Shown here: piece by piece, positions 9,360 to 29,230 of the stretch | How positions within the stretch are numbered: position 1 is the first letter of the stretch | Layout of the letters: every line of letters begins with the position of its first letter | NCBI GenBank assembly: GCA_029265815.1 | Contig: JAJUGU010000003.1 | Location: 248,001 to 312,000 of the forward strand | Direction of reading: 5' to 3' | Origin: Anaerolineaceae bacterium | Lineage (GTDB): Bacteria; Chloroflexota; Anaerolineae; Anaerolineales; Anaerolineaceae | Length of the DNA: 64,000 nucleotides | Notes under the pieces: generated by a model | The model's database searches: none | What the model was told of the DNA's origin: nothing | The model's input: the letters and a program-made list of their open reading frames with translations, nothing else | Position numbers and translations under genes: made by a program

Positions 9360-9481
9360 AATTTTACGGGAATTTAATGGCTTATCTCTAAAATTTCTGC
9401 CTACCCCTTCTTTTCTTCATTTTCATCACCTCGCAGAAGTTGAGATCAGCAAGGAATAAATAATTGGAAAGGATTATAAGC

Positions 9482-10477
9482 ATGAAAAAAACTTTTTCCA
9501 CGATCTTAATTCTTGTGGCACTGGTCACTGCGATGGTGGTCACCGAAGTAATCGCTTCACCTGTTCAATCTTCTGTGGATGCCAAAAAGAAAACCCCCGG
9601 CGCCCAGGCTACCGCGAACGCGATCAAAAAGCAAGACCGACAAAATTCCAGTCAGACCGACAAGGGTAACAACAAGAAGAACAAAGATGATTTTGCTGAT
9701 GTCATGACTGGCAAAAAAGTGAACCTGCGCGGAACGCTCGTCTCGTATGACGGCTCTCAACTGGTGATGAACCTCGGTGACGAATCTCTAGTGACCGTTT
9801 TCACCTCTGCTGATACCCGGATCCATATTCCGACTGGAAAATCCAGCGCCGCTGCCACTGATGAACCCACACTTGAACCGACCGTTGAACCGTCGGTAGA
9901 GCCATCCTTAGAGCCCTCTGTGGTGCCCTCTCTGGAACCAACCGAAGAACCCCCTGTTGAGGTAGTAGGAGGGCTCTATCCTGGTGTTCAGGTCAAAGTG
10001 AAGGCATACGTATTGACCGATGGCACTTACCTTGCGATCAGGATCCAGGTTGTCCCGGGTAAACCGGTGAAAGCCTATCACGTGGGTGTTGTCTACGCCT
10101 ACACTCCTGGGGTATCAATCACCATCGCGAACAAGAAATGCGAGTTCAGCACCTACCTGTTAACAGCATCGACAAAGTATCAGCCAGCCGAACGCGTTGC
10201 TGGGCTTGCCGTAGGCAGCCTGGTGACCATCATTGCACCGCGTGATGTGACTGGGGCCCCATTGACTGCGGCTGGTATCGTGATCCATCCATCAAAGGGT
10301 GCAGATGTTGAACCGACCGGCGAACCAACTGAAGAACCTACCGGCGAACCAACGGGTGAGCCCACTGGCGAACCAACAGGAGAGCCAACCACTGAACCGA
10401 CTCCAGTACTGGGTTGTGTCCTTCCCACGGCTGTTCCTACCCTGGAGCCAAGCGTGGTTCCCACTGAAGTTCCATAA
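9482..10477 (+). CDS. Secreted DUF5666-like protein with Glu-Pro-Thr linkers
   Basis: About 331 residues. ATG 9482 (MKKTFST) begins a classical signal peptide (hydrophobic core ILILVALVTAMVV, likely cleavage near IAS). AAAGGA lies 10 bases upstream; a TTG six codons earlier is less likely. Two small beta-type domains are separated by low-complexity linkers: the first (GTLVSYDGSQLVMNLGDES, mature residues about 60-110) resembles DUF5666 modules, and the second lies after VKVKAYVLTDGTYLAIRIQV. The linkers are runs of EPT/EPS, the longest a near-perfect tetrapeptide repeat close to the C-terminus. Function is unknown; it probably sits in the cell envelope or is released. It is transcribed alone from the promoter near 9355. 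Confidence 0.8.
   Translation: MKKTFSTILILVALVTAMVVTEVIASPVQSSVDAKKKTPGAQATANAIKKQDRQNSSQTDKGNNKKNKDDFADVMTGKKVNLRGTLVSYDGSQLVMNLGDESLVTVFTSADTRIHIPTGKSSAAATDEPTLEPTVEPSVEPSLEPSVVPSLEPTEEPPVEVVGGLYPGVQVKVKAYVLTDGTYLAIRIQVVPGKPVKAYHVGVVYAYTPGVSITIANKKCEFSTYLLTASTKYQPAERVAGLAVGSLVTIIAPRDVTGAPLTAAGIVIHPSKGADVEPTGEPTEEPTGEPTGEPTGEPTGEPTTEPTPVLGCVLPTAVPTLEPSVVPTEVP
10310..10405 (+). repeat. 12-bp tandem repeat coding for Gly-Glu-Pro-Thr units
   Basis: About eight imperfect 12-base units inside the preceding gene, each coding for GEPT, EEPT or TEPT. Third positions vary, so selection appears to act on the protein repeat and not on the DNA. Such repeats can change copy number by slippage. Confidence 0.8.
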
Positions 10478-15249: not shown

Positions 15250-15279
15250 GCAAGCACCTTGGCATAAGCAGAAAATGTG

Positions 15280-16298: not shown

Positions 16299-16895
16299 AT
16301 GAAATGCCTTCCAGAATCGTTTTACGCTGGCGAAGTGATTGATATTGCCAGAAACTTGCTGGGTATGCGGTTGGTGCGATATCTGGAAGGCGAGCGGATT
16401 TCTGGAATCATCACAGAAACCGAAGCGTATCGTGGAGAAGAAGACCTGGCCTGTCACGCGCGCAACGGAAAAACGCAGCGCAACGCGGTTATGTATGGAA
16501 GGCCAGGGCGGGCTTACATCTACTTCACTTATGGCATGCACTGGTGTTTAAATGCAGTCTGTGGACCAGAAGGTTTTCCAGCAGCAGTACTAATTCGGGC
16601 AATCTATCCTGTGGAAGGGAAAAAAGTCATTGCTGCAAGACGGGAAGGGGTTAAACCCGCCGACTGGTGCAGCGGTCCGGCGAGGTTGTGCAAAGCATTG
16701 GCAATCGATAAGGCATTGAATGGAGCATCTCTCTGCGAAGATGAAAGCCCATTGTGGATAGAAGAAGGTACTCCCCTTGTAGAAACGAATATTAAAATCA
16801 CCCCGCGCATCGGCATTCACAACACACCTGAACCCTGGCGCTCAAAACCCTGGCGTTTTGTGGTCCATTCGATGGAGAATATTAGTGATTCCTGA
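16299..16895 (+). CDS. DNA-3-methyladenine glycosylase, AAG/MPG family
   Basis: Base-excision repair glycosylase of the alkyladenine DNA glycosylase family, 198 residues, the usual bacterial length. Diagnostic stretches are ITETEAYRGEEDLACHA (catalytic Glu), MYGRPGRAYIYFTYGMH (intercalating and base-pocket Tyr), and GPARLCKAL. It removes alkylated purines such as 3-methyladenine and hypoxanthine. The gene appears leaderless, with its -10 box ending 6 bases before the ATG. The following E1-alpha gene starts within its last codons on the same strand, although the functions are unrelated. Confidence 0.95.
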   Translation: MKCLPESFYAGEVIDIARNLLGMRLVRYLEGERISGIITETEAYRGEEDLACHARNGKTQRNAVMYGRPGRAYIYFTYGMHWCLNAVCGPEGFPAAVLIRAIYPVEGKKVIAARREGVKPADWCSGPARLCKALAIDKALNGASLCEDESPLWIEEGTPLVETNIKITPRIGIHNTPEPWRSKPWRFVVHSMENISDS

Positions 16896-17790
16896 TCCAA
16901 TTCAATACTACCGGTCAATGTTAAAAATCCGCATTTTCGAAGAGACACTGCTCGAGGAATTTAAACGCGGAATATTCTCCGGAACCACGCATACTTCACT
17001 GGGGCAAGAAGCCAATGCGGTAGGGGTCATCCAGTCTCTTAACCAAAATGATGTGATCGTAACCAATCACCGTTGTCATGGTCATTTTATTGCCTACGGT
17101 GGAGATATGCGGGCACTTTTTGCAGAACTGATGGGCAAAGCAACCGGCGTGTGCGGTGGAAGGGGTGGGTCGCAGCACATTCACTGGCGAAATCTGTATT
17201 CCAACGGTGTACAGGGTGGCATCGTTCCGATTGCAGCAGGCATGGCGCTGGCTGAGAAACGCCTTAAAAGTGGAGTGGTAGTGACGGTTTTCATTGGTGA
17301 CGGAACGATGGGGGAGGGCGCGATTTACGAGGCGTTTAATATGGCCCGCATCTGGCAACTTCCGCTGATGGTGGTGGTAGAAAATAACCATATCGCTCAA
17401 ACCACCCCGGCTGCGTTGACGATCGCGGGTAGTATTACTGACCGTTTTAAAGCCTTTAATATCCCATGCACAGAATTGGACACAAGTGATGTGCTCGAGA
17501 TCGCCGCTGCTGCCAGGGAGTCAATCGTGCAGGTGCGGAATTTGTGCTCACCTTGCGCGTTGATTTTGAATACCGCCCGCTTCGGCCCCCACTCCAAAGG
17601 CGATGACACCCGTCCTGAGTCTGAAATACAGTTGCTAAGAGAGAAACGTGATCCAATCATGATACTGCGTAAGAAACTTGATCCCGTAGAGGCTGAATCT
17701 GTAGAAGTTGAAGTAAAAGCGGAAATTAATGCTGCGTTTCAGAAGGCTCTGAGTGATCCCGTCGCCACATTTGATGAGGTGCGTCGATGA
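16885..17790 (+). CDS. Thiamine diphosphate-dependent dehydrogenase E1 component, alpha subunit
   Basis: About 301 residues of the pyruvate/branched-chain/acetoin dehydrogenase E1-alpha family. The thiamine-diphosphate motif is intact (GDGTMGEGAIYEAFNMA through VENN, residues about 133-165). THTSLGQEANAVG near the N-terminus and HRCHGHFIAYGGD are family landmarks. GTG 16885 is preferred because GGAG lies about 8 bases upstream; TTG 16858 would overlap the glycosylase gene further. Its stop overlaps the start of the beta-subunit gene by 4 bases. The oxo-acid substrate is unknown; the downstream lipoyl-acyltransferase fusion suggests the acyl group goes to a sugar (inference). Confidence 0.9.
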   Translation: MIPDPIQYYRSMLKIRIFEETLLEEFKRGIFSGTTHTSLGQEANAVGVIQSLNQNDVIVTNHRCHGHFIAYGGDMRALFAELMGKATGVCGGRGGSQHIHWRNLYSNGVQGGIVPIAAGMALAEKRLKSGVVVTVFIGDGTMGEGAIYEAFNMARIWQLPLMVVVENNHIAQTTPAALTIAGSITDRFKAFNIPCTELDTSDVLEIAAAARESIVQVRNLCSPCALILNTARFGPHSKGDDTRPESEIQLLREKRDPIMILRKKLDPVEAESVEVEVKAEINAAFQKALSDPVATFDEVRR

Positions 17791-18821
17791 AAAACACTGT
17801 GCTGGATTCGCTCAACCAGGGTTTGCTTTCAGCATTGGAGCATGATGAGAGGGTGCTTCTGCTTGGAGAAGATATCCTTGATCCGTACGGTGGAGCTTTC
17901 AAAGTGACACGGGGTTGTTCAACGCATTATCCAGAACGGGTGATCACCACACCGATATCAGAAGCAGGTTTGGGTGGCGTGGTTGCGGGCCTTGCCTTGC
18001 GTGGAATGCGGCCGGTACTGGAGATTATGTTCGGCGATTTCACCACATTGTTAGCCGATCAACTGGTGAATCACATTTCAAAGTTCAGGTGGATGTACAA
18101 CGATACGGTCAGTCTGCCGCTGGTTATTCGCACTCCGATGGGCGGTCGTCGTGGATATGGCCCCACTCACTCGCAAACGCTCGAAAAACACTTTTTGGGC
18201 ATTCCGGGGTTAACCGTCGCAGCACCGGTTAACCTGCTTGACATTTCATCCGGTTACACCCCGGGCAGCATGCTGGAAAACATAATCTTGAGTACAGATT
18301 CACCTGTATTTTTTGTTGAAAACAAACTGCAATATTTGATGCCTGTTCTGGGATCTTCAGATTTATCCGATTTTGATATGCATGTTAATGGGGTTTCTCC
18401 CTTTCCAACCTTCATACTCAATTTGAAAGGCGCCCCTGCTCCCGTGGTCACGCTGACTGCCTACGGGTACATGGCTGAAATTGCCCGCCAGGCGCAGGAG
18501 AGGTTGGCTTTCGAAGAAGAAATCTTTACTGAATTGGTCATACCTACCATGCTAACCCCATTTAAATTCGATACACTGAAAGCCTCGGTTTCTCGTACCG
18601 GCAGGCTTGTTACCATTGAAGAAGGAGCGAAAACACTGGGCTGGGGGGCAGAAGTGATCGCCGGGCTTCTGGAAGGCGATATGCAGTTAAGAGTACCCGT
18701 CGTCCGTGTGGCAGCGCTTGATTTACCCGTGCCTGCTGCACCAACACTTGAAAAACAAGTTTTACCGCAGGTGGAAGATATCATGGCTGCGGTAAGAAAG
18801 GTAGCAACAATCCATGAATGA
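17787..18821 (+). CDS. Thiamine diphosphate-dependent dehydrogenase E1 component, beta subunit
   Basis: 344 residues matching transketolase-like E1-beta subunits: LLGEDILDPYGGAF, the catalytic-Glu region ISEAGLGGVVAGLALRGMRP, FRWMYNDTVSLPLVIRTPMG with GPTHSQ, and a C-terminal domain with VVTLTAYGYM and TIEEGAKTLGWGAEV. It forms the alpha2beta2 E1 with the upstream product. ATG overlaps the alpha stop by 4 bases, and its own end overlaps the lipoyl-fusion gene by 8 bases, so the three proteins are almost certainly made together. No E3 (dihydrolipoamide dehydrogenase) gene is in the window. Confidence 0.92.
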   Translation: MKNTVLDSLNQGLLSALEHDERVLLLGEDILDPYGGAFKVTRGCSTHYPERVITTPISEAGLGGVVAGLALRGMRPVLEIMFGDFTTLLADQLVNHISKFRWMYNDTVSLPLVIRTPMGGRRGYGPTHSQTLEKHFLGIPGLTVAAPVNLLDISSGYTPGSMLENIILSTDSPVFFVENKLQYLMPVLGSSDLSDFDMHVNGVSPFPTFILNLKGAPAPVVTLTAYGYMAEIARQAQERLAFEEEIFTELVIPTMLTPFKFDTLKASVSRTGRLVTIEEGAKTLGWGAEVIAGLLEGDMQLRVPVVRVAALDLPVPAAPTLEKQVLPQVEDIMAAVRKVATIHE

Positions 18822-19905
18822 TCTTTTTTCTGTACTTGTTCCCCTGGTCAATCCCAATGAAACTGAATCTCTGCTGGCAGAGCTGAAAGTTCGCGAGGGG
18901 CAGAAGGTTATTGCCGGTGATGTACTGGCTAGTTTTGAAACCACCAAATCCACATTCGATCTGACCGCAGAAAAAGATGGTTTTATTATTGGGTTGCGCT
19001 TTAGCGAGGGCGAAACAGTCAAGGCTGGTGAACGTTTATGTTACCTGGCAGAATCCGCTGACCAGCGGATTCCGGCGGAAGAATTCATAGAAAAAAGTGC
19101 TGAAGCACAGGAAAGATCGGAAATTCCGCGCGGATTGCGCATTACCCGGCCTGCGCTCGATCTGGCACGGTCGATGAACATTGACCTTTCAGCTTTACCA
19201 CGAGAAGTACTGATCACTGAAAAGTATATCCGCGAGCAGGCAGGTAGAACTTCTGTTGAAGTTGATCCAAAACTGATCGTGATCTATGGTGGAGGAGGGC
19301 ACGCCAAATCGCTGATCGATTTGATCAGGGCTGAGGGAAAATTCCAAATTTACGGGATAATCGATGACAGTATTTCCGCTGGGACAAAGATTCTGGATGT
19401 GCCAGTGCTGGGAGGCGGAGAACAGCTGTTAGATTTACGCAGGCGGGGGATCGGCAAGGCGGTGAATGCTGTGGGTGGCATAGGCAGCATCCAACCACGG
19501 CTGGCCGTTTATAACAAGATCAACCTGGCAGGCATTGTCTGTGTCACCGTCGTCCACCCGCGTGCATTCATCGAACCATCCGCTGAAGTTGCAGAAGGCT
19601 GCCAGGTATTCTTCAATGCATATATTGGAAGTGATGTGAAAGTGGGATTCGGCAGCGTCATCAATACAGGGGCGATCATCTCGCATGACTGTGTGCTGGG
19701 TGATTATGTAAATATTTCTCCTGGGGCGATCCTGGCTGGTGCGGTAACGATTGGTGAACGAACCCTGGTAGGGATGGGCGTTACGATTAACCTGGGTGTC
19801 AAGATCGGAGCCGGGTCACGTATCGGCAACAGTGCAGTAATCAAGGCAGATGTACCAGAGAACGGTATCGTCAGAGCAGGCGCAGTATGGCCGCAGGCTT
19901 CGTGA
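18814..19905 (+). CDS. Lipoyl domain fused to NeuD/PglD-type sugar acyltransferase
   Basis: 363 residues in three parts. Residues 1-80 are a lipoyl/biotinyl domain with the modifiable Lys45 in ETTKSTFDL. Residues about 105-143 match the peripheral E1/E3-subunit-binding domain of E2 proteins (RITRPALDLARSMNIDLS). Residues 154-363 are a NeuD/PglD-type acyltransferase: N-terminal nucleotide-sugar subdomain (IVIYGGGGHAKSLIDLI) and a C-terminal left-handed beta-helix of hexapeptide repeats with the catalytic-type His291 (ISHDCVLGDYVNISPGA). The normal E2 CAT acyltransferase domain is absent. Together with the E1 genes just upstream, this suggests an acyl group made on the lipoyl arm is passed to a sugar amine or hydroxyl. 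Domains are clear; the mechanism is inference. Confidence 0.88.
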   Translation: MNDLFSVLVPLVNPNETESLLAELKVREGQKVIAGDVLASFETTKSTFDLTAEKDGFIIGLRFSEGETVKAGERLCYLAESADQRIPAEEFIEKSAEAQERSEIPRGLRITRPALDLARSMNIDLSALPREVLITEKYIREQAGRTSVEVDPKLIVIYGGGGHAKSLIDLIRAEGKFQIYGIIDDSISAGTKILDVPVLGGGEQLLDLRRRGIGKAVNAVGGIGSIQPRLAVYNKINLAGIVCVTVVHPRAFIEPSAEVAEGCQVFFNAYIGSDVKVGFGSVINTGAIISHDCVLGDYVNISPGAILAGAVTIGERTLVGMGVTINLGVKIGAGSRIGNSAVIKADVPENGIVRAGAVWPQAS

Positions 19906-20060: not shown

Positions 20061-20534
20061 ATGTTCAAGAAATCAACCACACCTGTATCAACTCCCACCA
20101 CACCGGTGGAAAGGGTTACCTCTGTGTTGGGACCTGGTATCAACTGGTCGGGAAACCTTGGTGGAAAAGGTGGCATCCGCATTGAAGGAACCTTTGAGGG
20201 CGAGGTTGCGATTCGCGGTTTGGTTGTAATTGGCGAGACAGGGCGGTTGACCTGTAAGAATCTCAAAGCCAATAATGTGATTGTCGCCGGAGCTGTCAAG
20301 GGCAATATTATCGCGGAAAAACTCGAGATTCGATCCACGGGTCGGGTGTGGGGCGATGTGGTCACCACGGCATTTTCCACTGAAGAGGGTGCATTTCTGC
20401 GAGGGCAGGTGAGGATGGAAGAAAAAATCGAGCTCCAACTTGAAGAGGCACCCGCAGCTGAAAAAACTGAAAATGAGAACAGTGAATCAAAACCTGAGAA
20501 ACCGGTGAAAGGCCGCAAAGTTGTGGGTGAATAA
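20061..20534 (+). CDS. Bactofilin family polymer-forming protein
   Basis: 157 residues with a central bactofilin (DUF583) beta-helical domain of about 100 residues: INWSGNLGGKGGIRIEGTFE, then short repeats such as VVIGETGRLTCKNLKANNV and VKGNIIAEKLEI. Termini are polar and unordered, the C-terminus rich in Glu, Pro and Lys. Bactofilins self-assemble into filaments that place envelope enzymes. A clear TGGAGG lies upstream of the ATG. The next gene starts 2 bases after the stop, forming a small operon with the CPBP protein and probably ProRS. Confidence 0.93.
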   Translation: MFKKSTTPVSTPTTPVERVTSVLGPGINWSGNLGGKGGIRIEGTFEGEVAIRGLVVIGETGRLTCKNLKANNVIVAGAVKGNIIAEKLEIRSTGRVWGDVVTTAFSTEEGAFLRGQVRMEEKIELQLEEAPAAEKTENENSESKPEKPVKGRKVVGE

Positions 20535-21308: not shown

Positions 21309-23045
21309 ATGCGTCTTTCTCATCTGTTCAGTCAGACTCTGCGTGAAATTCCATCAGATGCAGAGGTTACCAGCCACCAATTGCTGGTGCGGGCAGGATT
21401 TATCCGCCAGCTGGGATCTGGTATTTTTACTTACCTGCCGCTGGCATACCGTACACTGACGAAGATCATGAATATCATGCGTGAGGAAATGAACGCCATC
21501 GGCGGGCAAGAAATCCTCATGCCGGTTGTGCACCCTGCGGATATATGGAAAGAAACGGGTCGGTATTATCAGATTGGAAGTGAGATGGGCCGCTTCAAAG
21601 ACAAAACTGATCATGATATGGTGCTGGCGATGACCCATGAAGAAATTGTGGCCGATCTGGTGCGCGGTGTCATTCGCTCTTACCGGCAGCTTCCAGCTCT
21701 GGTGTATCACCTGCAGACCAAGTGGCGCGACGATCCTCGCCCGCGAGCGGGTTTAATCCGCGTGCGAGAGTTTATCATGCTGGATTCGTACAGCCTGGAT
21801 TCAGACTGGGAAGGATTAGATGCGCAATACCAGGCGCATTACGATGCTTACTTCAAGATCTTCAAGCGCTGTGGTCTATCCACGGTGGCGGTTCAATCGG
21901 ATACGGGGATGATGGGTGGAAAGATGGCACATGAATATATGTACCTCACCCCGATCGGAGAGGATAGTCTTTTATTTTGTGATTCTTGCGGATATTCGGC
22001 AAACCGGCAGGTAGCCGCAGTTCGCAAACCAGAACCTGATCCTGAAGAACAGCTTCTACTGGAAAAAGTTGCCACACCCAACGCCTCTTCAATTGAAGAA
22101 CTATCAGCATTCCTGCAGGTTCCTGCTTCAAGAACTGCCAAGGCTGTTTTCTTTATGGCAAGGGTTGAAGATCAAGATGGAAATCAGCACGATCAATTTG
22201 TCTTTGCTGTGGTCCGCGGAGACATGGATGTGAACGAAACGAAGATTTCCAATCTGCTCAAAGCCAGAGATCTGCGTCCGGCGGCTGCGGACGAGATCAA
22301 AGCCTCTGGAGCTACAGCAGGTTATGCTTCACCGGTAGGATTGAAAGATATCCTGGTGATCGTTGACGAGTTGATTCCCCGCTCGCCGAATTTGGTGGCG
22401 GGTGCCAATGAAGAAGGGTACCATTTTCGAAATGTGAATTACGGCAGGGACTATTCGGCTGCGATTATTGCTGACATCACCGCAGCGCGTGAAGGAGATG
22501 CTTGCCCGAAATGCGGCTCACCGATGCGGCTCGCGCGTGGTGTGGAAGTGGGCAATATCTTCAAACTCGGAACGCGGTACACGGATGCGCTAAACTGCAC
22601 CTTTCTTGATGAGAATGGTAACCATAAACCGGTGATCATGGGTTCATACGGGATCGGGGTGGGGCGGCTGCTGGCCTGTGTTGCAGAAGAACATCACGAC
22701 GAACATGGTTTGATCTGGCCGGTGAGCATCGCACCATACCCGGTTCATCTCATTGTTCTACCCGGTAAGGAATTAGATACTCTCTCAATTGCTGAAAGAA
22801 TTGATGCCGAATTGACTGCGGCTGGATACGAACCCCTGGTGGATGACCGTATGGAATCGGCAGGAGTAAAATTTAATGATGCTGATCTCATCGGGCTGCC
22901 GTTGCGCATCACCGTCAGCGAACGTGCACTGAAACAGGGTGGCGTAGAATTTAAGTCACGCTGCAGCGGAGAGAGCTGGATCGTACCTGAATCAGAAGTG
23001 ATCACTGAAGTGGAAAAATTTCTTAAGAACTGTGAAGCTAAATAA
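21309..23045 (+). CDS. proS: Prolyl-tRNA synthetase, bacterial type
   Basis: Class II aminoacyl-tRNA synthetase charging tRNA-Pro, 578 residues. Motif 1 lies around YRTLTKIMNIMREEMNAIGG, motif 2 around RDDPRPRAGLIRVREFIM, motif 3 in SYGIGVGRLLA. Between motifs 2 and 3 is the editing (INS, YbaK-like) domain with SRTAKAVFFMARV, which hydrolyses Ala-tRNA-Pro. The anticodon-binding domain fills the C-terminus. ATG 21309 with GGAG upstream fits the conserved start MRLSHLFSQTLRE. CPKCG near residue 400 is an extra pair of Cys. Confidence 0.97.
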   Translation: MRLSHLFSQTLREIPSDAEVTSHQLLVRAGFIRQLGSGIFTYLPLAYRTLTKIMNIMREEMNAIGGQEILMPVVHPADIWKETGRYYQIGSEMGRFKDKTDHDMVLAMTHEEIVADLVRGVIRSYRQLPALVYHLQTKWRDDPRPRAGLIRVREFIMLDSYSLDSDWEGLDAQYQAHYDAYFKIFKRCGLSTVAVQSDTGMMGGKMAHEYMYLTPIGEDSLLFCDSCGYSANRQVAAVRKPEPDPEEQLLLEKVATPNASSIEELSAFLQVPASRTAKAVFFMARVEDQDGNQHDQFVFAVVRGDMDVNETKISNLLKARDLRPAAADEIKASGATAGYASPVGLKDILVIVDELIPRSPNLVAGANEEGYHFRNVNYGRDYSAAIIADITAAREGDACPKCGSPMRLARGVEVGNIFKLGTRYTDALNCTFLDENGNHKPVIMGSYGIGVGRLLACVAEEHHDEHGLIWPVSIAPYPVHLIVLPGKELDTLSIAERIDAELTAAGYEPLVDDRMESAGVKFNDADLIGLPLRITVSERALKQGGVEFKSRCSGESWIVPESEVITEVEKFLKNCEAK

Positions 23046-23088
23046 ACGAGAGCCGTCTCTGGCGTTAGAAAAGAGTAAAATTTATCAC

Positions 23089-24276
23089 ATGAAAAATTCA
23101 AAACCGCTAGTTCCAATGTCTTTACCCGACCTGACCGATGCTGAGCGTCAGGCCGTGATAGATTTATTACACACCCCCAATCTCAGTATGGGAAATGAAA
23201 TTGACGGGTTCGAAAGAGCCATCGCGAAATTCGTTGGTATAAAACATGCCATTGGCGTTACCTCTGGTACTACCGGGCTGCATCTTTGCGTGCGGGCGGC
23301 GGGTATTGGTGTCAATGATGTGGTGATCACAACACCGTTCTCTTTTGTTGCTTCTACCAATGTACTTCTATTTGAGAAAGCCATTCCCGTGTTTGTGGAT
23401 GTTGACCCCCAAACGGGTAATATTGATGTCTGCCAGGTTGCAGAGGCGGTTGCTGATCTTGAGCGGGGCGGTGAAGCTGCCAGGCGCTGGCTTCCGCGCA
23501 AAGGAGCGGAACACGCCGGGAAATTAAAATCCATCCTGGCGGTAGATGTATTTGGTCAACCAGCTGATTACGACCGACTGCAGCCAGTTGCAGATCAATT
23601 CGGTTTGACCCTGATCGAAGACTCCTGCGAATCCCTTGGAGCACAGTACAAAGGCCGGATGACCGGCACGCTGGGGCGCTTCGCGGTTTTTGCCTTTTAC
23701 CCTAACAAGCAAATTACAACTGGCGAAGGCGGAATGATCGTGACCAATGATGACGAAGCTGCCGACTTCATGCGCGCCCTGCGCAACCAGGGAAGGGCAC
23801 CCGGCGATAACTGGCTGCAGCATACTTACCTGGGCTACAACTACCGCATGGACGAGATGAGTGCAGCTCTGGGAAGAGTGCAGATGACGCGTATTGAGGA
23901 ACTGCTTAACAATCGTCAGCAGGTGGCAGACTGGTACAACTCACGCTTAAAAGAGATTTTACAGGTTGAACCCCCAGTAATCGTTCCAGACACAACGCGG
24001 GTCTCGTGGTTCGTGTATGTGATCCGTTTTATCAAGGGCATTGATCGAGATGCGATTGCCAGAAAACTGATCGATCGCGGCATTCCGGTTCGTCCGTATT
24101 TCCTGCCGATCCATCTTCAGCCTTACATGATGGATGCTTTTGGATATCGAGAAGGTGACTTTCCGGTTACAGAGGATCTTGGAAAACGCGGTTTAGCTTT
24201 GCCTTTTTCAGGAAAGATGACTGAAGCGGAGGTTGATCTCGTATGCAGAACCCTCGTTGAATGCCTGGAAAACTGA
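23089..24276 (+). CDS. DegT/DnrJ/EryC1/StrS family sugar aminotransferase
   Basis: PLP-dependent aminotransferase of the nucleotide-sugar type, about 395 residues. GTTGLHLCVRAAGIG binds the phosphate, EDSCESLGAQYKGRMTG carries the Asp for PLP, and the PLP lysine lies in FAFYPNKQITTGEGGM; NYRMDEMSAALGRVQ is also typical. It adds an amino group to a keto-sugar bound to a nucleotide, often for surface glycan or protein-glycan synthesis. An amino sugar made here would be a natural acceptor for the NeuD-type enzyme encoded 3 kb upstream (inference). TAAAAT at 23076-23081 ends 7 bases before the ATG and may give a leaderless message. Confidence 0.93.
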   Translation: MKNSKPLVPMSLPDLTDAERQAVIDLLHTPNLSMGNEIDGFERAIAKFVGIKHAIGVTSGTTGLHLCVRAAGIGVNDVVITTPFSFVASTNVLLFEKAIPVFVDVDPQTGNIDVCQVAEAVADLERGGEAARRWLPRKGAEHAGKLKSILAVDVFGQPADYDRLQPVADQFGLTLIEDSCESLGAQYKGRMTGTLGRFAVFAFYPNKQITTGEGGMIVTNDDEAADFMRALRNQGRAPGDNWLQHTYLGYNYRMDEMSAALGRVQMTRIEELLNNRQQVADWYNSRLKEILQVEPPVIVPDTTRVSWFVYVIRFIKGIDRDAIARKLIDRGIPVRPYFLPIHLQPYMMDAFGYREGDFPVTEDLGKRGLALPFSGKMTEAEVDLVCRTLVECLEN

Positions 24277-26190: not shown

Positions 26191-27414
26191 ATGTTTTTAC
26201 CACAGCAAAAATTCCACTGTAAGAAGACAAAAGCTCAGGCAATGGTTGAGCTTGCATTAACTTTGCCGATCTTTTTAATTTTGGTTTTTGGAATTTTTGA
26301 AATCTCAAGGCTCGTCTTTATTTACAGCGCGATCTTCACCGCCAGCCGTGACGCAGCCAGGTATGGAGCCGCGGCTGGGAAAAATGCCTCGGGAGAAGTG
26401 TTCTATCGAGATTGTGCCGGCATTATTCAACGGGCAGGTGACGTTAGTTCTTTCGTTGACATTGATGAAATATTAGTTGAATATGACCACGGACCTGACA
26501 GCAATGGTGCTTCGGAAGTGTTTGCGGTATGTCCGTTGGCTGCAGATGAAGAATTGGAAGTTGGTGACCGGGTGATTGTGACGGTTACGGCAACTTATCA
26601 TCCAACCGTCAGGTTGTTGAATTTGATCGGAGACATTCCAATTACATCGGTCTCAGCTCGAACAGTTGTCACCAAGCTTGAAATCATGGGTACTCCGCCA
26701 AATACCAACACACCGAAACCAACCTATACCCCAACAGCATCACCAACATCTACGATGACGCCGACAGCCAGCAATACCCCAACCGAGACGGCGACACCCA
26801 CGTTCACTTTTACGCCGAGCAATACACCAACGATTACCAATACACCAACGATTACCAACACACCGACAATTACCGATACACCAACGATCACGCTAACACC
26901 TTCGATTACGCTAACTCCATCCGAGACATTAACCCCTTCAATCACACCGACGCCGACCGAAACCTTAACGCCATCAGTCACACCGACTCCGACGGTTACC
27001 AATACACCGAGGCCCACAAAAACACCAACCAGTACAAGGACTCCTACCCCTACCCAGCCAAGCATTTGCGGGTACTTTGATATGCCTGAGGAGTCTGTCG
27101 TGCGTGGTATTCAAAGTTGGACAATCTCGATTACAAACACATCCGGGGGAAATGTGAGCGTTCAAAAACTGGAAGCCTGGTGGTGGAATTACTCCAAGCT
27201 CGAAAAGATTTTACTGCGCGAAAAGATCATCTGGGGAAGCATCGAGGGTGTTTACTCGCCTTTAACGACTACCTTTATTGATACTGCGCCCGCCGATTTG
27301 ATTGTCTATCCGGGAACCAGTAATCTTCAACTGGCATTTTTGGATGATTATTTCAGTATCTTCTTTATCAAGGTTTATCTGAGCAATGGCTGCTATGTGC
27401 AATACTGGCAATAG
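26191..27414 (+). CDS. TadE-like pseudopilin with Thr-Pro stalk
   Basis: 407 residues. A TadE module occupies residues 10-65: AQAMVELALTLPIFLILVFG with the conserved Glu after the processing region, then SASRDAARYG-like sequence (TASRDAARYG). A periplasmic-type domain runs to about residue 165, then a Thr/Pro-rich stalk of about 120 residues built from NTPTIT-like hexamers. The C-terminal domain of about 110 residues (WTISITNTSGGNVSVQKLEAWWW) looks like an immunoglobulin-type beta fold. It is probably a membrane-anchored or pilus-associated surface protein. Two further TadE/TadG-type genes follow directly; no tad ATPase or secretin genes are in the window. Confidence 0.85.
   Translation: MFLPQQKFHCKKTKAQAMVELALTLPIFLILVFGIFEISRLVFIYSAIFTASRDAARYGAAAGKNASGEVFYRDCAGIIQRAGDVSSFVDIDEILVEYDHGPDSNGASEVFAVCPLAADEELEVGDRVIVTVTATYHPTVRLLNLIGDIPITSVSARTVVTKLEIMGTPPNTNTPKPTYTPTASPTSTMTPTASNTPTETATPTFTFTPSNTPTITNTPTITNTPTITDTPTITLTPSITLTPSETLTPSITPTPTETLTPSVTPTPTVTNTPRPTKTPTSTRTPTPTQPSICGYFDMPEESVVRGIQSWTISITNTSGGNVSVQKLEAWWWNYSKLEKILLREKIIWGSIEGVYSPLTTTFIDTAPADLIVYPGTSNLQLAFLDDYFSIFFIKVYLSNGCYVQYWQ
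26821..26892 (+). repeat. 18-bp tandem repeat coding for Asn-Thr-Pro-Thr-Ile-Thr
   Basis: Four adjacent 18-base units at 26821, 26839, 26857 and 26875. The first two are identical (AATACACCAACGATTACC); the third and fourth carry a few substitutions. They are part of a longer Thr-Pro stalk (26700-27060). Confidence 0.85.
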
Positions 27415-27429
27415 TAACGGATTGTGGAT

Positions 27430-27894
27430 ATGAAAACAAAACAGGGCATGAAACAGGAGAAAGCACAAAGTCTGGTCGAATTTGCTGGAGCTCTGGTGGT
27501 TCTGGTGATCATCCTGGCGGGAGTGGTAGATCTTGGAAGAGCCATATTTACCCTTTTTGCCATGCAGGATGCCGCAGAGGAGGGCATCGTTTTTGGGACC
27601 AGTTTTCCAACTCACTGTGATCAAATTCGTGAACGAATCCAGTACAATCTTGCCAACGAGATTCTTCCCGATGACATAACTGTGTGGGTAACTATTGAAA
27701 ACAACGAAGGTGTGCAGCAATCCTGCGATTCAATCCCGGTGAATAACGTTTATGCGGGCAAGGAAATGCAAATTGAGGTAACGCAAACGTTCAATATCAC
27801 CATGCCGCTTATTGGCGCGTTTGTGGGGCAAACAATTCCTTTGAAAGCAACAGCGAACGGTATCATACTCAGACCGCAGCCGCCTGACTATTAA
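27430..27894 (+). CDS. TadE-like pseudopilin
   Basis: About 154 residues. KAQSLVEFAGALVVLVIILAGVVDLGRAIFTLF is the single N-terminal membrane segment with the TadE-type Glu (quoted here in parts: QSLVEFAG, then a hydrophobic helix, then DLGRAIF). A short soluble domain with two Cys (THCDQI; QQSCDS) follows. ATG 27430 is preferred over GTG 27424. It is 15 bases downstream of the first TadE-like gene and directly upstream of a TadG-like gene. Confidence 0.85.
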   Translation: MKTKQGMKQEKAQSLVEFAGALVVLVIILAGVVDLGRAIFTLFAMQDAAEEGIVFGTSFPTHCDQIRERIQYNLANEILPDDITVWVTIENNEGVQQSCDSIPVNNVYAGKEMQIEVTQTFNITMPLIGAFVGQTIPLKATANGIILRPQPPDY

Positions 27895-27907
27895 GATGAG
27901 GTGTAAG

Positions 27908-29230
27908 ATGATGGAAAGAAAAGAAAAAGGACAAATTCTGATCATCCTGGCGATCGCCATGGTGGCGTTGCTTTCGATTACTGCTCTGGCAATCGATGGC
28001 AGCATGGTTTATAACGACCGGCGTACTGATCAGAGCACCGCAGATTCTGCAGCGCTTGCTGGTGCAGGAGCGGCAGCCCAGATTCTCAAAGATCATCATC
28101 CGACCGATTTTGTATGCGGCGGAGGTGAAGCCAAACCACTTGCGTATCAGGCCACGTTGGCTGCGCTTCAGGCAGCTTATGATTCAGCACTCGCAGATGA
28201 TGTAACGCTCACGCTTCAGGATACCAGCGCGGAGAATTATGTTCATATCACATGTAATCCGGGCAATTCTGGGAAAAAATACCTGGATGTCGAGGTGGTG
28301 GTCACTTCTACGGTGGAAACCACCTTTGCCAGGATAATCTCACGAGAATCGCTCACGACCAAGGTCAAGTCGGTTGCCAGAGTGTATCCAAAGCAACCCT
28401 TCGCGAACGGTAACGCGCTGGTTTCGCTTTCTAACAGTTGCGGAACAAACGTGGGTGGTATTGAATTTGCAGGTGGTTCGGATGTAGATGTCACCGACGC
28501 TGGAATTTTCTCAAATTCATGCATTAAAGCCCAGAGCAGTGCAACCAGCGTGATCGTGATCAATGGCAACATCCAATACTTGACCACCTGTACAGGCTGT
28601 GCCACTGCTGATATGGAACCAGACGCCACTCAGGCATCGGAACCGCTGCCAAAAGAAATCTTGAATTCCGATGATATCCCGGTATGCTCGGCTTCACCAT
28701 TTAAGAACGCTGATTATTCTACCGGTGTTCTTGAACCAGGGAACTACTATGGCTTATCCATTCCAGCAAAAAAAACCGTAGTCCTTAAGCCCGGGCTATA
28801 TTGTCTTAAAGGTGACTTAAATAACGGTTCGCAGTCTATTTTGAAGGCTGAACGGGTTACCTTTTCTATTCTTGAGGGAGATGTATCCATTAATCAAAAT
28901 GACAAAGGACTGACCTGGTTAACGGCTCCCGATTGCGAAACAAAGGATGCCACCTGTGATGTGCCCCCTGCTGTGAGAGGTTTATTGATGTACCTTGACC
29001 CTGCAAAACCGCACAGCGTTACTTTAAACGGTGGTTCTACCAACCTGTTCGAAGGGACGATCTACGGACCGAACACAACTTTCAAAATCAATGGTAATTC
29101 AGCAACCGATTCCTTTAAAACCCAGATCATTGGCAGCTACATCTACATTTCGGGCAGTAGTATGTTGAAGATGAATCTTAATGGTGCCGAAATGTACTGG
29201 GACGATTCATCAATTGACTTGATCGAATAA
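27908..29230 (+). CDS. TadG-like Flp pilus-assembly protein with C-terminal beta-helix-like domain
   Basis: About 440 residues. The N-terminus has the TadE/G-like helix (GQILIILAIAMVALLSITAL) and the hallmark DQSTADSAALAGAGAA. The remainder, residues about 130-440, is rich in Gly, Ser and beta-prone segments and is not recognised: GGIEFAGGSDVDVTDAGIFS, PGNYYGLSIPAKKTVVLKPG and LNGGSTNLFEGTIYGPN suggest a polymer-forming or beta-helical fold like those in DUF7305-type proteins. GAGG at 27898-27901 places the start at ATG 27908. An efficient terminator follows. Confidence 0.85.
   Translation: MMERKEKGQILIILAIAMVALLSITALAIDGSMVYNDRRTDQSTADSAALAGAGAAAQILKDHHPTDFVCGGGEAKPLAYQATLAALQAAYDSALADDVTLTLQDTSAENYVHITCNPGNSGKKYLDVEVVVTSTVETTFARIISRESLTTKVKSVARVYPKQPFANGNALVSLSNSCGTNVGGIEFAGGSDVDVTDAGIFSNSCIKAQSSATSVIVINGNIQYLTTCTGCATADMEPDATQASEPLPKEILNSDDIPVCSASPFKNADYSTGVLEPGNYYGLSIPAKKTVVLKPGLYCLKGDLNNGSQSILKAERVTFSILEGDVSINQNDKGLTWLTAPDCETKDATCDVPPAVRGLLMYLDPAKPHSVTLNGGSTNLFEGTIYGPNTTFKINGNSATDSFKTQIIGSYIYISGSSMLKMNLNGAEMYWDDSSIDLIE

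Follow-up and report, generated by a model that had tools for sequence, protein, structure and literature searches.

A conserved gene triad of Chloroflexota joins two E1 subunits to a lipoyl domain fused with a NeuD/PglD-type acyltransferase, a putative lipoyl-fed sugar N-acyltransferase

We analyzed three genes located on the + strand of a 64-kb stretch of DNA from an Anaerolineaceae bacterium (assembly GCA_029265815.1, contig JAJUGU010000003.1, positions 248,001 to 312,000), hereafter called the window. Two of them encode E1-alpha-like and E1-beta-like subunits, and the third encodes a lipoyl domain fused to a NeuD/PglD-type sugar acyltransferase. The three genes form a unit that is conserved in Chloroflexota, in which the lipoyl lysine and the catalytic histidine of the acyltransferase are kept. 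We consider it probable, with a good measure of doubt, that this triad is a lipoyl-fed N-acyltransferase, in which an acyl group would pass directly from the E1-loaded lipoyl-Lys45 to a UDP-4-amino sugar. The same reading with glycolyl as the acyl group is put forward more tentatively.

The gene triad

The three genes are open reading frames (Table 1) which overlap by 4 nt between E1-alpha and E1-beta and by 8 nt between E1-beta and the fusion. These overlaps had the sizes given by the original prediction, made from the sequence alone; they join successive genes, and its statement that the fusion is overlapped on both sides was wrong. E1-alpha contains the motifs NHRCHGH and HSKGDDTR, which are also found in E1s of natural-product clusters, and a GDG...NN stretch which we take to be the thiamine diphosphate (ThDP) motif. 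E1-beta contains TPISEAG and GYGPTHSQ. In the fusion, Pfam recognizes residues 10-77 as Biotin_lipoyl (PF00364, 42.6 bits for a cut-off of 22.1) and residues 155-236 as PglD_N, followed by Hexapep repeats, and the NCBIfam NeuD model TIGR03570 scores 170.7 bits for a curated cut-off of 160.8. The catalytic acyltransferase (CAT) domain PF00198 was not found in the fusion by Pfam. Since the three genes overlap and the gap between the fusion and the following bactofilin gene is 155 bp, there is no space for an acyl carrier protein (ACP) gene, and the window cluster contains none.

Table 1. Positions in the window of the triad, of the segments of the fusion and of the DegT-type gene
Feature	Position	Strand	Remarks
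E1-alpha-like ThDP subunit	16885 (GTG)..17790	+	301 aa; E1_dh PF00676 at 1.5e-54
E1-beta-like subunit	17787..18821	+	344 aa; Transket_pyr and Transketolase_C
Lipoyl/NeuD fusion	18814..19905	+	363 aa; Biotin_lipoyl, PglD_N, Hexapep, TIGR03570
Lipoyl domain	18841..19044	+	fusion residues 10-77; Lys45 in ETTK
Two-helix segment like a peripheral subunit-binding domain, shortened loop	19138..19248	+	residues 109-145; PF02817 without match in the window protein
NeuD/PglD-type acyltransferase	19273..19902	+	residues 154-363; His291, Asp184-Asp185; C-terminal GxPA absent
DegT/PglE-like aminotransferase	23032..24276	+	homologues in relatives 61-73% identical; likely maker of the 4-amino acceptor

Conservation of the triad in Chloroflexota

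The GTDB genomes were scanned with an alignment of eight fusions: that of the window, six of Anaerolineae type, and one from a genome of another class (G437, see below). The scan gave 199 pattern matches, of which 138 were confirmed as relatives. All counts on 80 loci given here concern the best 80 of these 138, and counts on 81 rows concern the window plus these 80 loci. The record titles of the 80 loci name Anaerolineae, Anaerolineales, Anaerolineaceae, Anaerolinea, Brevefilum, Chloroflexi/Chloroflexota and Ca. Aquidulcis, the last of which also belongs to Chloroflexota. Within this family, identity to the window protein goes down to 44%. A lipoyl match is present in the frame of the fusion at 79 of the 80 loci, and the remaining one (L179) ends at a contig edge inside the lipoyl domain. 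Because lipoyl and NeuD are thus found in one frame at so many further loci, an origin of the fusion by frameshift or assembly join, an artefact which the original prediction had itself envisaged, is ruled out.

The order of the genes is conserved as well. E1-beta is found on the same strand as the fusion in 77 of the 80 loci, one gene upstream in 69 cases and two genes upstream in 8. The three loci without it start at contig ends, 2, 220 and 0 bp before the fusion, and E1-beta is present in all 77 loci having upstream sequence. E1-alpha lies at most three genes from the fusion in 70 loci. The exceptions are distributed as follows: five loci (L124, L141, L146, L171 and L179) hold at most 685 bp upstream; in two (L132 and L164), E1-alpha is four genes away; in one (L175), it is on an overlapping frame; and in two (L158 and L170), it was not seen within three genes of the fusion. 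In nine loci E1-alpha and E1-beta form a single open frame. Position 45 of the fusion is a lysine in 80 of the 81 rows, L179 being cut there, and the complete ETTK motif is present in 79, with ENTK in L139 and the same cut in L179. The survey of genomes thus makes the E1-lipoyl-NeuD order a conserved unit, and the triad read from the sequence of the window is confirmed by its frames, by its Pfam and NCBIfam domains and by the 80 further loci.

The association was also examined from the side of NeuD. A search of 298 genomes of the class listed 43 NeuD places, 30 of them with loci; the 29 of these beyond the window were examined. Three of the 29 are fusions, each with E1s, and 26 have no lipoyl match, a count which includes one locus (G271) with a lipoyl remnant. 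No E1 was found near any of these 26 lipoyl-free NeuDs within the 1.5 kb at most examined around them, three being shortened by contig ends. In a phylum sample of 400 genomes, the seven best E1-beta matches (358-758 bits) all adjoin a fusion. One E1-beta scan of viral contigs found no relative, and the plasmid collection held no record covering at least 80% of the fusion. Among the open-access papers listed by the literature searches, none is on a lipoyl-NeuD/PglD or lipoyl-sugar-acyltransferase protein, as judged by titles and the starts of abstracts.

Two observations were made in passing on members of the family. In four close relatives, two genes lie between the fusion and bactofilin (L104:9108-11333, with similar-sized genes in L105, L108 and L111); by eye, and read in L104 alone, they are NRAMP-like (434-440 aa) and universal-stress-like (300-318 aa). 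In another genome of the same class (G220, C103:4010-5119), a 459-aa frame is 29% identical to the fusion over the residues 8-355 of the latter, and is perhaps a further lipoyl-NeuD lineage.

Fold and conserved residues of the fusion

An AlphaFold model of the fusion was built on 71 aligned sequences, that of the window plus 70 from the 80 loci, with a mean predicted local distance difference test score (pLDDT) of 92.9 and a predicted template modelling score (pTM) of 0.73. Comparison of the NeuD part (residues 151-363) with the PDB gave close matches: PerB (4eaa, Z 31.1, 2.0 Å over 206 residues), the acetyltransferase domain of PglB (4m99, Z 30.0, 1.6 Å over 204), VioB (7txp, Z 28.7, 1.9 Å over 203) and PglD with acetyl-CoA (3bsy, Z 27.4, 1.9 Å over 191). 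The match to PerB and the TIGR03570 score above cut-off bear out the left-handed beta-helix of NeuD/PglD type that had been predicted. The subunit-binding domain claimed for the fusion fared less well. Two helices are present in the model at residues 109-145, in a segment which by eye resembles such a domain with a shortened loop; the E3-binding family PF02817 gave no match to the window protein up to an E value of 1, and weak ones to three of the 71 aligned fusions (best E 0.031).

His291, His163, Asp184, Asp185 and Gly309 are invariant in the 81 rows. His291 aligns with His141 of PerB, the residue mutated in 4eaa/4eab; the roles of the others would carry over by motif position. The fusions differ from most NeuDs in one motif, the C-terminal GxPA, whose proline is described as isomerising on coenzyme A (CoA) binding in Pcryo_0637 (PMC8040287). 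GxPA is present in none of the 80 fusion rows having that region versus 21 of 23 distant lipoyl-free NeuDs; it is thus usual and not universal, two of these 23 being also without it. Its absence fits a changed acyl donor.

Phylogeny of the E1 subunits and the acyl donor

In the plasmid collection, the best match of both E1 subunits is RenH, from a plasmid of Ca. Endohaliclona renieramycinifaciens (235 bits for E1-beta, 233 for E1-alpha). In RenH the two subunits are a single polypeptide, and RenI, which comes next, has lipoyl and CAT domains. A tree was computed on 51 concatenated E1 pairs, the fusion-linked ones being that of the window and those of 19 selected loci; another nine fusion loci and the canonical L063-L065 were left out. 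A branch with 100/100 support separates the 20 fusion-linked pairs and 9 natural-product or ETSK-type pairs from 22 canonical pairs, including an annotated pyruvate dehydrogenase (PDH, L189). The motifs GTTHT, GGSQH, HSKGDDTR and GYGPTHSQ are common to the window E1s and the natural-product side. The lipoyl motifs are distributed as follows. On the natural-product side, we read ETTK in the fusions, ETSK in RenI, L185, L186, L073 and L079, and ESTK in L074, while L078 and L184 have no adjacent lipoyl match. On the canonical side, the motif is ETDK in L062, L075, L076, L083, L084, L188, L189 and L191, and ETEK in L192. It was not read in L187 (natural-product side) and L066 (canonical), and the remaining canonical rows have no adjacent lipoyl match. 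Four of the natural-product-type pairs are from Chloroflexota (L073, L074, L078 and L079), and three of them (L073, L074 and L079) adjoin an ETSK/ESTK lipoyl-CAT protein.

The E1s had been predicted to act on a 2-oxo acid. This claim needs revision, because the E1 pair groups with RenH and not with PDH, and a ketose is the reported source of the C2 unit in modules of this kind. QncN, QncL and QncM are reported to have been shown to direct both the synthesis of a C2-glycolicacyl unit and its attachment, and SclQ1-4 are proposed, by homology, to use a ketose phosphate (PMC6335953); NapB/NapD-like proteins are credited with obtaining a hydroxyethyl unit from xylulose-5-phosphate (PMC7570522). A ketose phosphate donor may be considered as a lead only, since QncN/QncL and NapB/NapD are absent from our tree and the reaction of RenH is given in no paper found. 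For the acyl group, glycolyl would be as likely as acetyl: glycolyl, from a ketose phosphate, is our first guess, and acetyl, from pyruvate, the second. A literature search on N-glycolyl 4-amino sugars returned 87 matches, and the word "glycolyl" was in none of the best 10.

Lipoyl supply and the missing E2

The genome of the window encodes LipA and E3, both over cut-off, and GcvH. PF00364 is found in two places of this genome, the fusion and a 147-aa frame on contig C13 that we took for a biotin carrier. The E1-alpha of the triad is the only full match to E1_dh; a weak second one (C17:236251-236598) looks by eye like half of a split transketolase.

A separate CAT-type E2 that would be the true partner of the E1s was searched for. 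The sole PF00198 match in the genome is an orphan 282-aa frame (C17:66734-67567) without a lipoyl domain, to which no NCBIfam model corresponds at E up to 1e-10. No full-length match to this protein was found in 19 relatives, six of which carry the triad; five of the 19 give matches of 30-40% over about 80 residues, inside frames of 433-510 aa. Such a partner is therefore disfavoured by the search in relatives, and is kept as a weak rival.

LipA was considered as a marker of the cluster, and proved partly useful only. Within the family, it is over cut-off in the four genomes with the triad versus one of six genomes without the triad's E1-beta. The one is G271, where the E1-beta match has 39% identity and is on another contig; G253, G202, G555, G575 and G617 have no LipA. 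The last three, which are outside the class-wide fusion search, were counted as triad-free by a missing E1-beta match at 1e-50. LipA thus tracks the cluster within the family, with the exception of G271.

Independent occurrences of the arrangement

In G437, a genome of another class, lipoyl-NeuD, E1-alpha, E1-beta and DegT are encoded by four overlapping or adjacent genes. The lipoyl motif of this fusion is ETDK, and its NeuD part scores 162.4 for the cut-off of 160.8. A related fusion is present in G567, of the same family as G437, on a different contig from its E1-beta and DegT, and no further one was found among 158 genomes of the class of G437 (E up to 1e-25). In G537, we observed in order E1-alpha, E1-beta, a lipoyl-PSBD-hexapeptide protein (PSBD, peripheral subunit-binding domain), a 249-aa frame and DegT. 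The 533-aa protein (C43, L075:6003-7601), with lipoyl, E3_binding (PF02817, 7.3e-15) and hexapeptide matches, is, judging by these domains, a second and differently built lipoyl-acyltransferase fusion. Because the E1s of G437 and G537 are on the canonical side of the E1 tree, the combination of E1s with a lipoyl-acyltransferase protein probably has more than one origin. In the full form of the scheme proposed below, a sugar enzyme would have taken the place of the terminal acyltransferase in a loading module of E1 and lipoyl, probably on more than one occasion in Chloroflexota.

Acceptor sugar and neighbouring genes

A DegT gene is found at most eight genes from the fusion in 29 of the 80 loci: on the strand of the fusion, it is the next gene in 15 cases and is located further downstream in 12, and in 2 it is upstream on the other strand. 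Identity to the window DegT is 61-73% in 28 of them and 35% in L182. The window has its DegT four genes downstream of the fusion, and the closest relatives keep this order. Homologues of DegT also adjoin many lipoyl-free NeuDs, nine of them at 52-62% identity. In 26 loci, a gene of PglC type precedes the fusion by 2-5 genes and has the same orientation (PF02397 was assigned in L119, and the other loci were found by BLAST to the L119 protein). One gene or the other is present in 44 loci, and both in 11. On other contigs, the genome of the window encodes a PseB-type UDP-GlcNAc 4,6-dehydratase over cut-off, as well as a 633-aa frame with a CapD-like match and a 222-aa one that shares 66.5% identity with the PglC-type enzyme over 200 residues. 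A PseB/CapD-type dehydratase, DegT and a PglC-type enzyme together make up the set for biosynthesis of a UDP-4-amino-4,6-dideoxy sugar, as in the Pgl pathway. The neighbouring genes suggest that the acceptor is a UDP-4-amino sugar; DegT had been predicted as its maker, and the DegT and PglC-type neighbours support this amino-sugar setting.

A part in acceptor synthesis had also been proposed for the GalE-like short-chain dehydrogenase/reductase (SDR) encoded at 15277 in the window. In 17 loci, nine of which also carry DegT, this gene precedes the fusion by 3-4 genes with the same orientation (61-86% identity), and it is kept in G271, whose locus has no E1s. It may have such a part, or its conservation may be one of synteny; the PseB-type dehydratase, whose gene lies on another contig, is the likelier partner.

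Other genes of the window were noted. The bactofilin gene (20061-20534) lies directly or shortly 3' of the fusion in close relatives, and bactofilin also adjoins NeuD in the lipoyl-free G271, G253 and G202. By eye, three TadE/TadG-like pilus-type frames are present at 26191-29230, one with a long Thr-Pro-rich repeat, and a secreted-looking protein with C-terminal EPTGEPT-type repeats at 9464-10477.

Proposed mechanism and alternatives

In the mechanism that we propose, the E1 subunits would use their ThDP to draw a two-carbon unit, or another acyl unit, from the donor and would load it by reductive acylation onto the lipoyl group predicted on Lys45, the arm of which would swing to the NeuD domain of its own chain or of a putative trimer. 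A PseB/CapD-type dehydratase and the DegT enzyme would supply the UDP-4-amino-4,6-dideoxy sugar, the C4 amine of which would be activated by His291 and receive the acyl group. The genomic E3 would reoxidise the dihydrolipoyl group, and the PglC-type transferase, encoded upstream in many relatives, would then shift the sugar phosphate onto the lipid carrier. In its full form, a route free of CoA and ACP leading within one assembly from a ketose phosphate (or 2-oxo acid) to an N-glycolyl (or N-acyl) group on the UDP-4-amino sugar, this scheme is possible, and we advance it with reserve.

Several observations weigh against this mechanism. The first are provided by close relatives without a working lipoyl domain. 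In G271 (L085/L011, C5), the order Epi-Mpg-NeuD-bactofilin-ProS-DegT is kept, the E1s are absent from the locus and NeuD has an N-terminal lipoyl remnant without the lysine; in G253 and G202, NeuD has no lipoyl domain and the locus no E1. A quick NeuD tree was made with 49 fusions (after thinning), the 26 lipoyl-free NeuDs and the G437 fusion. The three sequences group together (support 99) inside a set of 48 rows containing 45 fusions (support 88), four fusions being outside, which suggests that lipoyl domain and E1s were lost secondarily. Since these three persist without a working lipoyl domain or E1s in the locus, NeuD of this clade can serve without lipoyl, presumably with CoA. They are also without GxPA (0 of 3). 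The loss of this motif is therefore a trait of the clade, and we rejected it as a proof of CoA independence. LipA, for its part, is not diagnostic of the triad, because it is present in all seven triad-free members of the order outside the family, and GcvH, another lipoyl protein, in all 22 genomes searched. Neither DegT nor a PglC-type gene lies within eight genes in 36 of the 80 loci. In 16 of these, the flanking sequence exceeds 5 kb on each side, so that the genes for the sugar are often located in other parts of the genome. Finally, no E3-binding domain proper (PF02817) was recognised in the fusion by Pfam, and no biochemical report on the fusion of the window was found in the open-access literature.

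One alternative, which we consider unlikely, is that the E1s and the lipoyl domain make an acyl-CoA through the orphan CAT-like protein or another transacylase, the NeuD domain then using the CoA ester and the fusion serving to channel it. Solved NeuD/PglD structures bind CoA or acetyl-CoA, according to their PDB titles, one CAT-like orphan is encoded in the genome, and lipoyl-free members of this NeuD clade exist. However, this orphan has no full-length counterpart even in the six relatives with the triad, the fusion itself has no CAT domain, and the CoA-associated GxPA is absent from every fusion row having the region. That the lipoyl domain is a relic or a regulatory part, and NeuD an ordinary acetyl-CoA enzyme, seems very improbable: the lysine-free remnant of G271, in a locus without E1, indicates that relics occur, but ETTK is maintained in nearly all rows at identities down to 44%, and E1-beta accompanies the fusion wherever there is upstream sequence. 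A further alternative is nested in lipoyl-fed transfer and differs from it by the donor alone: the E1s would use a 2-oxo acid such as pyruvate, and the amino sugar would receive an ordinary N-acetyl (or branched N-acyl) group. The best PDB match of each E1 subunit is indeed human PDH E1, and the G437 and G537 systems have canonical-side E1s; the fully supported branch between the window E1s and the annotated PDH, and the four motifs shared with the natural-product side, weigh against this donor for the window, which we regard as possible and less likely than not.

Comparison with known systems

The fusion shares with PglD, NeuD, PerB and VioB (TIGR03570) the fold, the catalytic histidine, the Asp-Asp pair, a score above the NCBIfam cut-off and a DegT nearby; it differs from them by its N-terminal lipoyl domain, by the overlapping E1 genes in front and by the absence of GxPA. 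With the natural-product C2 modules, the comparison was made on our own tree for RenH/RenI and on published descriptions for QncN/QncL, SclQ2-4 and NapB/NapD. The likeness lies in the side of the E1 tree and the E1 motifs (RenH and four other cluster E1s), in the lipoyl motif (ETSK/ESTK, close to the ETTK of the window, unlike ETDK) and in E1-alpha and E1-beta being sometimes one chain. These modules end in a CAT-type acyltransferase, whereas that of the window ends in a sugar acyltransferase, and the published cases use an ACP whereas the window cluster has none. Pyruvate and branched-chain 2-oxoacid dehydrogenase complexes likewise have E1-alpha, E1-beta, a lipoyl domain and, in the genome, E3; unlike them, the window system has no CAT domain, no recognisable E3-binding domain, and E1s outside the canonical side. 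LpxA and LpxD, acyl-ACP enzymes with a left-handed beta-helix, match the NeuD part with Z of about 19-22 over about 117-120 residues. They take their acyl group from the swinging arm of a carrier protein, which is the phosphopantetheine of a separate ACP, whereas the arm of the window system would be a lipoyl-lysine built into the fusion.

The known donors of sugar N-acyltransferases with this fold are esters of CoA or ACP. If the proposed reading is true, a lipoyl-linked, E1-fed donor would be a third kind of donor for this acyltransferase fold, and central pools of ketoses or 2-oxo acids would be tied directly to the decoration of surface glycans. The E1-lipoyl unit would then be a loading module that can be carried from one system to another and combined with different terminal acyltransferases.

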